Of a stretch of 55,030 bases of DNA, positions 46,191 through 54,733 are shown piece by piece. The notes beneath the pieces were generated by a model. That model saw only the letters and a program-made list of their open reading frames with translations, was not told the origin of the DNA and searched no databases. The stretch's first letter is position 1; each line of letters begins with the position of its first letter. This DNA is from an uncultured Clostridia bacterium. Lineage in GTDB: Bacteria; Bacillota; Clostridia; Oscillospirales; Ruminococcaceae. The position numbers and the translations under genes were made by a program. Location of the stretch: assembly GCA_947625615.1 (NCBI GenBank), contig CANQPB010000014.1, forward strand, positions 1-55,030, given 5' to 3'.

Positions 46191-48824
<2,634 letters not shown>

Positions 48825-48835
48825 TTTTTCGACCG

Positions 48836-48870
48836 AATCGGGCGGGGCGCTTTGCTCCGCCTGATTTTTT
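48836..48870 (+). terminator. Rho-independent terminator after ppdK
   Basis: AATCGGGCGGGGC pairs with GCTCCGCCTGATT (two G-U pairs), followed by TTTTTATT. Confidence 0.85.
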
Positions 48871-48988
48871 ATTATCTGAAATTGATAAAAAATCAGCAAC
48901 ATATATAATCAAGCAGGCAAATTACACAATACAGACGGGAGCAAATGGTAAAAACTCGCTGAAATTTTGTAAGATATCACAAAATTAC

Positions 48989-49017
48989 TTGACGGTTTAG
49001 TACAAAAGTGGTATATT
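48989..49017 (+). promoter_or_regulatory. Promoter of the giant Cys-rich protein gene
   Basis: TTGACG (48989-48994), a 17-bp spacer and TATATT (49012-49017). AGGAGG at 49047-49052 and AAAGGA at 49053-49058 precede TTG 49059 and ATG 49068, which are in the same frame. A working promoter and ribosome site argue that the frameshifted gene downstream is not simply dead. Confidence 0.75.
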
Positions 49018-49067
49018 ATCCTTATAATATTATGCGGTAAAACCGCAGGAGGAAAGGATTGAAAGAT

Positions 49068-52000
49068 ATGGTTAAGCGGATAATGTCGGTCATGCTGACA
49101 TTGGTTTTGCTTCTCTCAAATGCAACCGGGGGGGGTTAACCACCCATATTCACGCGGTAGACGGCCATCTGTGGTCTGACCTTCCGGCCGCCCCCACAGC
49201 CCCCGTCGTAAGCGCGGACGAATCCCTGCCCGCCGCCCCCGAACCCGCCTGGCAAGCCTTGCCGGCGCCGGACGTACTGGAGCTGCCTTTAGCAGGTGCT
49301 GACGTTCCATTAACGTTCACGTTCGACTTTGGCCGTTGGGCAGCTGGAGAAGTACAGTTTTATGAAAACGAGAACGGCGTTGCAAGGTACAGCACAAAAA
49401 TCAGTGAGATTTTGGCACGTTACAATAAGGCCGAAATTACTTTCACTATTAAAGATGCGATTGCTGACGATACTCCTATAGATGTGTCTAAAATGGGTGC
49501 AGAGGCTGTATCATCTACTGGTGCCGGGTCTTCAGGAAACAAAGGACATGGGTATGATAATACGCTTAATGGTACGCCTAAGGTTATCGTAAAGAATGAT
49601 AACGGCAACATTACGATGACCTGGGATCTTGAGGCGATTTATGATTTTGAGGCTGCTGAGAATCCTTATTTACCCGAAGAAGTTTTCAATGAGCTGAAAG
49701 TATTCCCCACTATACCCGGAAATGTTCTTGCCGGAGATGCGGCGACAAAAGTAACTGCCACTCTCACTAACCCGGTATTGACATTTGTTTCAAAACCCGC
49801 CGAACCCGAGCCCGAGGGTGTTTTGCTTACACTTGTAAAAGACAGCACAAGCTTGGACGGCGTAGATTTCTCCGGCCCGGCAATAGCATATGGCTCAAGG
49901 GTTATATCTAACACCAATGCTCGCTGGGACGACTATATAAATGCTGTCAAAACTCCTGATGCAAAGTTTATTCTGAAATATACCATTGCCGGCGAACCTA
50001 CCGTAAAAGGTGACGGCAGTACTGATTCAGGTTGGATGAATTTCTTCCAGTCGTCCTATGATGTTGGCGGAATTGGTCATGTGAGCATTGCAAATTATGA
50101 TGGTAGTAATGGCCCATATCTTCACGACAATTATAATGGGGCAGATATGCCTAATCAGTGGTCTCTCTTAAATGTAGGTGAGCATATCGTTACGTTAAGT
50201 TGTGCTGACTATCTTAGCGTTATTGCAAACCATAAATGTAATGATCATCACCCTGACGGCGGACTGGCGATCGACGATTCGACAGCCCTTGTTTTCCAGT
50301 CCGGCCTTGTTGACACCTTGCAGATAAACGTCACTGATTTGTACATAGCGGGTGCTTCAACTACCCCCGACGACCCCACCACCACCTGCCCCAACGAGGC
50401 AGAGCACATCGCCAACGGCTGGACAAAGGTTGATCTAACTAAAATCGAATATAGCGATGATGACGCCTGGTGCATTCCCCTTGCCAGCGGAGACTTAGTC
50501 TACCCCAATGATACGTTTGACTATTGCTTCATTGCCACCGGCGGAACCGCGACCAACATTCGCTTCTATCTTAACAGCGGTAAAGGAAACAGTAGTGAAA
50601 ATCTAAGTCAGAGTTATACTAATACTGTCGACAAGACCGGCGATGTATTCAGCAAGACCGGAACAATTACCGACACTGATAATCCCGGCGTAAATTGTAA
50701 ATCCGCCGATACTGTCAAGTTTAAGGTCAACGGCGAAGGAAGCATTGAAGAACTTAAATTCACACATTTCTACTATAAGATCAATTGCATGTCGCACGAT
50801 TTCCAGACCGTTTACGACGGCAAGAACCATTGGAAGGCCTGCACAAAGTGCGGCGAAATCGAAGGCGACAAAACCGTTCACGACTTCTCCGGCTATTCGC
50901 TCAAGTGCTCCGTCTGCGGTTACACCCACCTTGCAAACGAGGTTGAAATTAACCTCAAGGATACTGTATCTCTAAATAAGGACGCCGTTAAGTTTGACAG
51001 CGACGGCAACGCCACAGTTGAAAACGGCGCCACAGATCAGATATCCTTTGCTTTTGACAGAAATCTTGAAATCGGCGAAGAGGTAACCGTTCATGTGCTT
51101 GCCTCCGCCCCCAGCGAGGTCAGATTCTGGCTTATGCAGGGCACTTCTGCAACGAGGATTTCCGATATAGGCGTTTTAACAGACCAAAAACATACCGGCA
51201 ATTTGTATGATTTCACTGCTACCATAACCGTTGCAGATGCTGAAAACAAAGGCGCCACCACCGCGGGAAGCATAGCCTTTAAGGGCCCTGCGGGCGGCGT
51301 ACTGCCGGCGTTCACGGTTTACCACATAGGTGTTGTTTACCCCGGCTGCAATCACCCCGCCGACAAGCAGGTTTATCAATTCGACCTGAATCAGCATTGG
51401 AAACTTTGCACAGTTTGCAATACCGTAATCAGTGAAAAGACCGCCCACACCATGCAGGGCCTTAAGTGCACCGGCTGTGATTTCGAGCATTACAATGGTG
51501 AAGTAGAAATTGAACTCACCAAGGATATAATAAAATCCGACAATCTTGACGCAATCACAGTTGAAAACGGCGTTGTCAAGGTCAAGCCGGATTCTGTAGG
51601 GTGGCTCAGCTTCGACTTCGGCAGAACGGTTATGAACGGCGAAAAGGTGAGCGTTCACCTTATAGGCGAGATAGTCGGCGGCGCCGCAAATGATAACGGT
51701 TATCTCAGAGCATGGCTCGGTGATACTACAAATAAGTCCGAGGGCTCAGAATGTGCTGATATCAACAAGACCTCCGACGGAATCTTCTATAACGGATACT
51801 TCCAGATGAGGCATGAATTCACTCATAAATATGATTATGATGCCGCCCATTCCTTTGCTCTTAAGGCAAATTCATATGATACAAAGCTTCCTGAGCTTAA
51901 TATTGAGCATCTCGCGGTCGTATTGTCCATCTGCCCGCATAATGTGGATTCCGAAAATCACGAGGCATGGCTTGAGGGCAACTACGTCAAGTATGTTTCC

Positions 52001-54733
52001 AAGGGAGCAACGCAGCACGACGAAGTCTGCACGCTCTGCGGTGAAACAATCGTCACCGAAGAACACGCCAAGAGCGAAGTCACAAGCAAAAACGATAAGG
52101 AACACGGCTGGAGCTGCACCAAGTGCGATTACACTGCAACCGAAGCCCACTCCTTCGAATACGAATATGTAGACGCCTCCACCCACACCGTCACCTGCAC
52201 GGGCTGCGACTACAAAAAGACCGCCGCCCACACTCCCGGCGACGAATGGGTCGAGGACGACGAGGGCAGATACCACCTCTGTGCCGACTGCAATGGCAAG
52301 TGCGACGTCACCGCGCACGACTACGTCTGCGTGCCCGACGAAGACGGCAGCGGCCACCACATGGAATGCAAGACCTGCCACCATGTAAAGGCCGGCAGCT
52401 CAGAAAATCACGCCTATGAGGACGGCAAATGCACCGAGTGCGGATATGTTCACCCCGAGGACGCTCACGAGTGGAGCGGCTGGACTGCCGACAAGGGCGC
52501 CGATACCCACAGCCGCGAGTGCACGGTCTGCCATAAGACCGAGACCTCGGCCCACACTTTCGGCACCGAGATCAAGGACGGCGGCGACTACCACTATACC
52601 GAATGCACCGTCTGCAAGGAGCAGAAGACCGAGGAGCACACCTACGGCGACTGGATCTATGTCGACGGCGAGACGCATAAGCACGTCTGCAAGTGCGGCC
52701 ATGAGGAGAGCAAGCCTCATACGCTTTCCAAGGAGTACGCAAGCGACTCCATAAACCACTGGCACGAATGCACCGAGTGCAAGGACGAAACCGGCAAGGC
52801 CGGCACCTCCGCCAAGGAGAATCACGTTTATCCCGAGGGCGAGGATCACTGCTCGGTCTGCAACTACTGGAACCACCAGCACAGCTATGTCTGGGAGCAT
52901 GACGACACCCAGCACTGGCAGAGATGCACCGCCGAGGACTGCGGCCACACCACCGCCAAGGAAGACCACCGCTTCGGCGACTACAAATACGATGCCAAGA
53001 CTCACGAAAAGGTCTGCGAGGTCTGCGCGGCAAGAGTAAGCGAGGAGCATACCTTCCCCGAAAAGGACGGCAAGCCCGTTTACGAGCACGACAAGGGCAC
53101 TCACTGGCAGGTCTGCGAGGTCTGCGGATACGAGACCCACGCACAGGCCCACGAAGTTGAGGTCATAAAGGGCAAACCCGCCACCTGCGTCGACGACGGC
53201 ATCACCGACGGCGAATTCTGCACCGTCTGCGGATATGTCATCAAGGAGCAGGAGACCATAAAGGCCACCGGCGTGCACACCTATGCCGAGGGCAAATATG
53301 AGAAGGACGCCGAGGAGCATTGGCAGATCTGCGAGGTCTGCAAGCAGGAGTCCGAGCATGTCGCCCACGATTACGAAGATGGCGTCTGCACCGCCTGCGA
53401 ATACGAGCACACCGGCCACGCTCCCGCCGCCGGAGCCAAGTACACTCCCACCCAGGAGGGACACACCTACCTCTGCGAGGTTTGCCACAAGGTAGTCTTT
53501 GAAGACCACACCGTCGGCAAGGAATACAAGACCAACGACAAGTCTCACTGGCATGAGTGCGAGAAGTGCTTCGCCCACATCGGCGAGGCCGAGCACACTC
53601 TCAAGTGCGTAAGCGACGGCGAGGTAACTCACCACAGCGAATGCGGCGTCTGCGGATACAAGTCCGCCGCCGAAAACCACAACTGGGACGACGGCAAGAT
53701 CACCGTCGAGCCGACATACACCAAGGAGGGCGTAAAGACCTTCACCTGCAAAGACTGCGGAGCCGAAAAGACAGAAACCGTTTCGAAAGTTCCTCACGAG
53801 CATGAATACGTCATGCGCAGCGACGCTTCCGGCCACTGGAACGAATGCACCGTATGCGGAGAGAAGAAGGACGCCGAGGCGCACACTCCCTCCGAATGGA
53901 TAATCGACAGCGAAGCTACACACGAAACCGCCGGCAAGCGCCATAAAGAATGCGCCGTCTGCGGATACGTCACCGACGAGGTTGAGATGCCCGCCATCGG
54001 CGACATCGACGTCGAGATTCCCACCGAGGGCGACGTTCCCAAGGTTCAGATCCCCGCCGATATGCAGGAGCAGCTCAAGCAGTCTCTCATCACCGAGGAG
54101 GACGCCAAGGAGATCGAAAACGGCTCTTTGATAGACATCGAAATGACCGTTGAAAACGCCGAAAGCAGCGTCGATTCCGTTACCAAGCAGAAGGCCGACA
54201 GCAAGACCTCCGAGATAGGCTACAGCCACGGCTGCTACTTCGAGATCAGCCTTGAAAAGGTCACCACCACCGCAAGCGGCAGCACCACCTCGGTCGGGAT
54301 AACCGAGCTCGCCAAGCCCATCAGGATCGTAATGGATATTCCCGCAAGCCTCAGAGGCTTCAACAGAACATTCGCGGTGATCCGCGTACACGGCGACAGC
54401 GTCGACGTCCTCAATGATCTCGACAGCGACCCGAACACGATCACCTTTGAAACCGACCGCTTCTCGAGCTACACTCTCGTTTACAAGAATCCTGCCATCT
54501 GGGTTCCCGCCGGAAGCAGTCACACCCACATCATCGGCCCATGGTTCAACGACAACCTCTGCCACTGGAGACAGTGCGTCACCTGCACCATGCGGATTGA
54601 CTATGCCGAGCACAGCTTCGTCGACGGCGTCTGCACCGTCTGCGGATACGCCGACCCGCTCTACACTCCCGGTGAGGTCATAGATGTCGACGCGCCCACC
54701 GCCCCGACAATCCACCGCACCGACGCCCACTGA
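49068..54733 (+). CDS. Giant secreted Cys-rich repeat protein, frameshifted at a poly-G tract
   Basis: ATG 49068 encodes a signal peptide (MVKRIMSVMLTLVLLLSNAT) and then meets an 8-G run and TAA (49137). The -1 frame is open from the G run to 54733 without a stop. A 9-G (or 6-G) tract, or -1 slippage, would give one ORF (about 1888 residues for 9 Gs). The product has about four ~130-residue beta-sandwich-like modules to roughly residue 960 and then some 27 CxxC motifs in alternating HWxxCxxCG and GxCxxCGY units (52000-54000). Next comes a domain with IRIVMDIPASLRGFNRTFAV and a final CxxC pair. No LPXTG-type signal or dockerin is seen. Function is unknown; a zinc-binding or disulfide-stabilised stalk is plausible. 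Confidence 0.8.
49128..49135 (+). repeat. Poly-G tract (8 G) at the end of the signal peptide region
   Basis: Eight consecutive Gs after AATGCAACC. In the present length the ATG 49068 frame ends at TAA 49137-49139; shifting by -1 enters the long ORF. Such tracts are typical slipped-strand phase-variation sites, and also typical sequencing-error sites. Confidence 0.9.

Follow-up and report, generated by a model that had tools for sequence, protein, structure and literature searches.

A poly-G tract within signal-peptide codons is a probable phase-variation locus in a Clostridia genus with many such tracts

A run of eight G lies among the signal-peptide codons of a gene in an uncultured Clostridia bacterium, parting the signal peptide from a giant open frame. 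We are confident, short of certainty, that this is a slipped-strand translational contingency (phase-variation) locus, found in the OFF state in all three genomes in which we have seen it. Slippage during replication would alter the number of G within the signal-peptide codons. With a number that is not a multiple of three, translation would end shortly past the tract without yielding a secreted protein; with a multiple of three, the signal peptide would come into frame with a giant repeat-rich surface protein. The support from our analysis consists of the tract, the split frame, a promoter and start, a layout common to three species at three tract lengths, constraint at the level of the protein, and an abundance of such tracts in the genome and the genus. 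We infer that tract length changes within a population fast enough for a switch, that the ON state occurs and that the protein has a surface role. Points against this reading include that all three genomes are OFF, that the copy studied here has no anchor, and that three of the 31 genus genomes have no run of eight G.

The window, by which we mean the whole 55,030-nucleotide stretch of DNA analysed, is the entire contig C14 of its genome (G000; 2.17 Mb, 58 contigs, 99.24% complete). Two other species of the genus, G029 and G026, carry the same locus and are compared with it below.

48989-48994 and 49012-49017, plus strand: promoter boxes TTGACG and TATATT with a 17-nt spacer, read from the sequence; boxes and spacing also in G029 and G026.
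49033-49047, plus strand: 5' leader hairpin TGCGGT-AAA-ACCGCA, abutting the ribosome site; picked out by eye, with no folding program run.
49047-49052, plus strand: ribosome binding site AGGAGG, read from the sequence; AAAGGA instead in G029 and G026.
49068-49127, plus strand: ATG and signal-peptide codons, 60 nt up to the tract; the same distance in G029 and G026.
49128-49135, plus strand: tract of eight G, read from the sequence; at the same place in G029:C33 (7 G) and G026:C20 (10 G).
49137-49139, plus strand: TAA closing the signal-peptide frame, one base past the tract.
49136-54733, plus strand: downstream frame of 1,865 codons, opening with TTA at 49136 and closing with a stop at 54731-54733; read from the sequence.
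49136-49165, plus strand: first downstream codons, LTTHIHAVDG, which by eye match LIEHVHVEAA of both G029 and G026.
49796-50332, plus strand: shared domain, 49% identical in proteins of G029:C6 and G026:C10 and 35% in one of G011:C5.

The preliminary description had an eight-G tract splitting a signal peptide from a long frame, and that is what is there. The frame from ATG 49068 reads MVKRIMSVMLTLVLLLSNATGGG, in which we call the signal peptide by eye, and it yields a 23-residue product, ending just past the G run as that account had it. The promoter and ribosome site are in place, and the frame that follows is open for the 5.6 kb claimed for it, its earliest listed start codon being TTG 49259, 41 codons past the tract. 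One detail has to be revised. The start had been placed at TTG 49059, for which the leaders of G029 and G026 offer no equivalent; the start common to the three species is ATG 49068. At this locus, then, tract length separates a short peptide from a long open frame. The leader hairpin has 6 bp; its counterpart in G029, TGCGGC-AAA-GCCGCA, shows one paired change, and four pairs are kept in G026 (all by eye).

The relatives came from a DNA search of 31 genus genomes, own genome included, with window positions 47800-49250 as query. The neighbouring ppdK gene was matched in 29 of the 31 (again counting our own), and matches to the leader only, stopping at the tract, turned up in two of the 30 other genomes, at G029:C33 and G026:C20 and with 74% identity. 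Both share the window's layout down to the promoter boxes, the 17-nt spacing, the start codon 60 nt before the tract and the arrangement CC-G(n)-TTAA, and both have signal peptides by eye, MRKKVMSVLLALVLIISNFTGG and MKKRIVSALLALVLILSNFTGGG, respectively. Comparing the three species, we find the layout and the flanks conserved and the tract length not: eight G in the window, seven in G029 and ten in G026, in a comparison between species with one genome for each. The whole signal-peptide frames come to 29 residues in G029 and 25 in G026, and the ORFs downstream, out of frame with them, to at least 2,602 codons (up to the contig end) and 1,793 codons. Among 395 genomes of the family, a sample with seven genus members that include neither G026 nor G029, the leader was matched besides in its own genome only by five genomes over 26-39 nt, which we take as chance. 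All three copies found are out of frame, three genomes being weak evidence about a missing ON copy; joined frames occur only in other tract genes of the genus.

Judged by the relatives, tracts of 7 and 10 G against 8, each followed by a homologous open frame, support the phase-variation reading that had been put forward. Two patterns had been named as speaking against it, a fixed in-frame tract in relatives and many stops downstream in relatives. We found neither: the tracts are those just given, and there are no stops in the G029 and G026 stretches examined.

Two look-alikes had also been named. The first is programmed slippage on the tract, considered here as recoding in which the ribosome or RNA polymerase slips to make some full-length protein. 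Seven to ten G make a slippery tract, and it is odd, if ON cells are common, that all three genomes are out of frame. But lengths of 8, 7 and 10 G leave remainders modulo three of 2, 1 and 1, so there is no constant offset of the kind that programmed -1 frameshifting has, and a single shift cannot serve tracts that differ in this way. Recoding also says little about the tracts that lie between -35 and -10 boxes in the same genome, which are not expected to be translated; slippage at the level of DNA explains more. We consider it highly unlikely that recoding accounts for the locus, although transcript slippage may be a low-level addition. The second is a homopolymer error in the consensus, the gene being simply intact. 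Homopolymers are error-prone under some sequencing methods, but here three separate assemblies would need differing errors at one site, one of them in only seven G, and a longer tract of 9 G in the same genome sits in an intact acyltransferase-like frame (G000:C11). We give this explanation next to no weight. The lengths of 7, 8 and 10 G speak both against a single fixed shift of the ribosome and against simple error in assembly.

What follows the tract has been kept as a protein. The three downstream proteins are homologous, at 42% over 1,053 columns for the window and G026, 34% over 1,374 for the window and G029, and 50% over 1,367 for G026 and G029. Mismatch rates at codon positions 1, 2 and 3, taken from the single best blastp alignment of each pair (which may pair non-corresponding repeats), are 0.34, 0.32 and 0.48 for the window against G026 (873 codons), 0.40, 0.37 and 0.56 for the window against G029 (1,074 codons), and 0.29, 0.28 and 0.47 for G026 against G029 (1,162 codons). 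The third position is the most divergent in all three pairs, which indicates that the downstream frame is maintained for its protein.

That protein has the look of a large surface protein. In Gram-positive bacteria, sortase-anchored repeat proteins combine a signal peptide, long repeats and a sorting signal, and the G026 copy is alike in having a signal peptide, repeats and, at its C terminus (ENPKTGVVFTGIGAVMAAIAALIAKRK), NPKTG followed by a hydrophobic stretch and KRK. By eye, we would call this end a putative sortase-type anchor. The G029 protein has reached NPKTGVIFTGI where its contig ends. The window copy differs: at 54650-54733, the place matching the G026 anchor, there is no C-terminal anchor. 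CxxC-rich repeats fill its second half (by eye). The proteins of G029:C6 and G026:C10 that bear the shared domain are secreted and intact, with their signal peptides unsplit, and the intact frame of the G029:C6 gene contains 7 G in a row. Neither the window's downstream frame, searched against Pfam and NCBIfam, nor that of G026, searched against NCBIfam, gave a family above cut-off. A search of named genomes with the 399 residues past the tract found no close relatives. Structure prediction for the 181-residue domain from three sequences gave no usable model (mean pLDDT 33), and a PDB sequence search with the three-sequence domain alignment gave one match at E = 0.46, taken as chance.

A gene that is mostly dead and slowly drifting, acquiring rare indels between species while on its way to being lost, is another way to see the locus. 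Its being OFF in three of three genomes fits, as does the window copy's lack of an anchor, and there is a precedent in Propionibacterium acnes: across 90 genomes, 54 variable tracts, nearly all of G/C, follow the clades, and the authors read them as slow accumulation, not active modification (PMC4746626). The P. acnes tracts resemble ours in having a Gram-positive host, in being almost only G/C, and in being both intergenic and in-frame, adhesin genes included (PMC4746626). They differ in that one species was studied there and clade-wise drift found, while here we have a comparison between species and a flanking signature common to the tracts. By analogy, slow accumulation of that type could operate here too. 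Yet gene decay is difficult to reconcile with frames that run without a stop for 1,865 codons in the window, 1,793 in G026 and at least 2,602 in G029, and with divergence biased to the third codon position. Drift toward loss seems to us highly unlikely, and slow drift without true switching, in the manner of P. acnes, remains the best rival to the contingency reading.

The contingency reading also gains from the company the tract keeps. The own genome has 45 overlapping matches to eight-G runs, which resolve into 20 tracts of 8-11 G. Runs of exactly 7 G number 18, followed by three of 8 G, ten of 9 G, six of 10 G and one of 11 G, so that 9 G is the mode beyond 7 and the window's length of 8 is the rarest but one among tract lengths. 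Its eight G, 60 nt after the start, form a 5' coding homopolymer longer than genome composition predicts. Because the run lengths of the own genome lack a steady fall-off, and because the tract has been kept in place in two other species, we regard it as more than chance. Seven genomes had all their listed tracts fetched (G000, G018, G019, G020, G023, G024 and G025; 90 tracts in all), and their totals were 18, 51, 17 and 4 runs of 8, 9, 10 and 11 G against 116 of exactly 7 G. A run of at least eight G is present in 28 of the 31 genus genomes and absent from three. G006, G010 and G017 have many tracts, in G-rich clusters; G017 has 50 runs of at least 8 G, some more than 20 G long and often within G-rich stretches, an excess that may be an oddity of assembly or composition.

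By a fixed rule, the 90 tracts fell into 19 between -35 and -10 boxes, 9 that join frames, 9 that split frames, 6 near an ORF 3' end and 47 elsewhere, the nine split cases being an upper bound under a loose rule and doubtful for G000:C10, G000:C17, G024:C14 and G025:C3:38592. For 31 of the 47 elsewhere, an ORF of at least 80 residues begins within 250 nt on one strand. The pattern of a ribosome site, a start and G8 is not enriched in the genus, with 61 overlapping matches against 120 for the reversed control, or 28 against 41 when the G-rich G017 is left out. The case for coding tracts therefore rests on individual loci and on the statistics of run length and promoters.

Eight of the own genome's 20 tracts lie between TTGACA and a -10 box. 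Tested at one threshold, 25 of 115 fetched tracts (loci from ten genus genomes, own included; 8 of 20 in the own genome) had this position, against 33 of 5,118 runs of 4-7 G from the same loci. The promoter-type pattern with at least seven G occurs at 31 places in 16 of the 31 genus genomes, and its reversed form at none. With at least eight G it was found in 13 of the 395 family genomes, four of them in the genus; three of the others correspond exactly to named records, namely Candidatus Avimicrobium faecavium, Hydrogenoanaerobacterium saccharovorans An564 and an uncultured Clostridia MAG. Named genomes gave at least 117 stretches, from many MAGs of Clostridia and Bacilli and also from Streptobacillus, Helicobacter, Streptococcus and others; with matches across so many named genomes, the promoter type is widespread. 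Seven of the eight promoter tracts in the own genome have, within 160 nt downstream, an ORF of 417-1,295 residues, six with a signal peptide by eye; at the other, C1:54813, no ORF longer than 37 residues begins within 250 nt. At one locus of this genome (L046, G000:C21:34691-34728), 8 G in the promoter spacer are followed by 9 G starting 21 nt after and then by one ORF of 1,295 residues, which has a signal peptide by eye.

Other orthologous tracts also change in length and frame. One promoter, 93% identical between G026 and G029, carries 9 G in the former and 7 G in the latter, and further orthologous comparisons, likewise with conserved flanks, gave 10 against 9 G (G027:C37 and G022:C44), 9 against 10 G (G025 and either G019 or G024) and 8 against 9 G. 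A MurT-like gene has 9, 8, 6 and 9 G in G026:C9, G020:C18, G024:C12 and G029:C45, its frame being joined at 8 G (G020) and split at 9 G (G026); a tract in a MurT-like gene (lipid II isoglutaminyl synthase) is odd for a cell-wall enzyme. In a secreted Peptidase_C39_2 protein, a signal-peptide tract of 9 G splits the frame in G022 and one of 10 G joins it in G027. At G022:C2 the signal-peptide frame is split, and a longer open frame lacking a signal peptide runs through. For a lipoprotein with 9 G throughout (SBP_bac_8 in G025), two species, G025 and G023, have the frame joined, and G022 has it split. G026:C4 mirrors the design of the window locus: its signal peptide is followed by 10 G and a stop straight after them, and 1,332 codons with a subtilase domain come next in another frame. 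Among 18 stretches following coding tracts, 13 had a Pfam family at E up to 0.001 (L289 lying below the Pfam cut-off) and five lacked one, as did two proteins downstream of promoter tracts. Domains in further tract genes include acyltransferase, glycosyltransferase, short-chain dehydrogenase and hexapeptide-transferase.

Tracts of at least 9 G have a flank in common, shared by promoter, ORF and intergenic tracts alike. It consists of an A-rich tetramer within -11 to -4, a C at position -1 and TA following the tract, and it accompanies 30 of 70 non-promoter tracts of at least 9 G against 18 of 5,142 runs of 4-6 G, when tracts with identical last ten upstream bases are collapsed and controls are drawn from the same loci. 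The complete signature is present in 10 of 18 promoter tracts, and a looser form in 16 of 28 tracts listed as coding (our own list, some of whose entries are 3'-end cases), compared with 2-4% among runs of 4-6 G. The A-rich tetramers concentrate 4-7 nt before the tract. C precedes 91% of the tracts here and, among the matches listed, 72 of 107 promoter tracts of named genomes. At the window tract the A-run and the C are present, with TT following in place of TA. These numbers describe the signature and do not test it, since it was first noticed in these very tracts and then counted. Exact matching against viral contigs found one form of the signature 3 times and one scrambled form not at all, numbers too small to be of use. 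It may be that a dedicated process, acting alike in promoters, coding and intergenic DNA, puts or maintains the genus's G tracts at a site specified by sequence (A-rich tetramer ending 4-7 nt before, C directly before, TA directly after), and that they do not each stem from selection alone; we hold this unlikely.

A -35-like box within 25 nt downstream, with a -10 box behind it, accompanies 9 of 93 non-promoter tracts against 41 of 5,156 control runs. Just one of the nine, G026:C8:11879, is on the coding list, and we take the nine to mean that some tracts lie in the upstream part of a promoter. We also considered pairing of the G tract with a C-rich upstream arm as a general mechanism and dropped it: 9 of the 70 non-promoter tracts have such an arm, as do 432 of the 5,142 control runs. 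One tract of 9 or 10 G with a C-rich arm upstream is common to five species (G000:C10:64988, G019:C5:5858, G023:C16:39362, G024:C8:53000 and G025:C22:36589); the opposite strand of G000, G019 and G024 has, 44-85 nt from the tract, an ORF whose start is lipoprotein-like or signal-like.

The general picture for a locus of this kind comes from the poly-G/C translational contingency loci of Neisseria, Campylobacter and Helicobacter, described in part in PMC2791445 and PMC11868660. Ours is like them in its 5' coding G tract, a reading frame set by tract length and a surface protein as product. It differs in its Clostridia host, in a protein without a family match and in being known from a comparison between species. 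In meningococcal porA, fetA and opc, homopolymers lie between -10 and -35 (PMC2791445), as do eight other tracts of the own genome; the window tract differs in being coding, and its own 17-nt promoter spacer holds no G tract. The usual clients of contingency loci are surface proteins and surface-modifying enzymes, according to a review (PMC11868660), whose references include a poly-C case in group A Streptococcus, so that Gram-positive cases are known.

The type of locus in the window is therefore already known; what is unexpected is a many-locus poly-G set in this Clostridia genus, together with the signature flanking its tracts. In the open-licence literature, which gives weak evidence of absence, the matches listed for repeat-based phase variation in Clostridia or gut Firmicutes included no account of such a set, and as far as we searched many-locus poly-G variation has not been described in this host group. 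The same review raises as a major question why many-locus phase-variable genomes are apparently restricted to pathogens, and allows that database bias may be the cause (PMC11868660). Our genus belongs to the family that also holds Candidatus Avimicrobium faecavium. We know of no sign that it is pathogenic. With a product that resembles a large surface protein, the switch may play a part in escape from phage or antibody, or in adhesion. Should switching within populations prove real, the question of restriction to pathogens could be asked of a lineage not among the usual germs, and metagenome reads would allow the switches to be followed in hosts.
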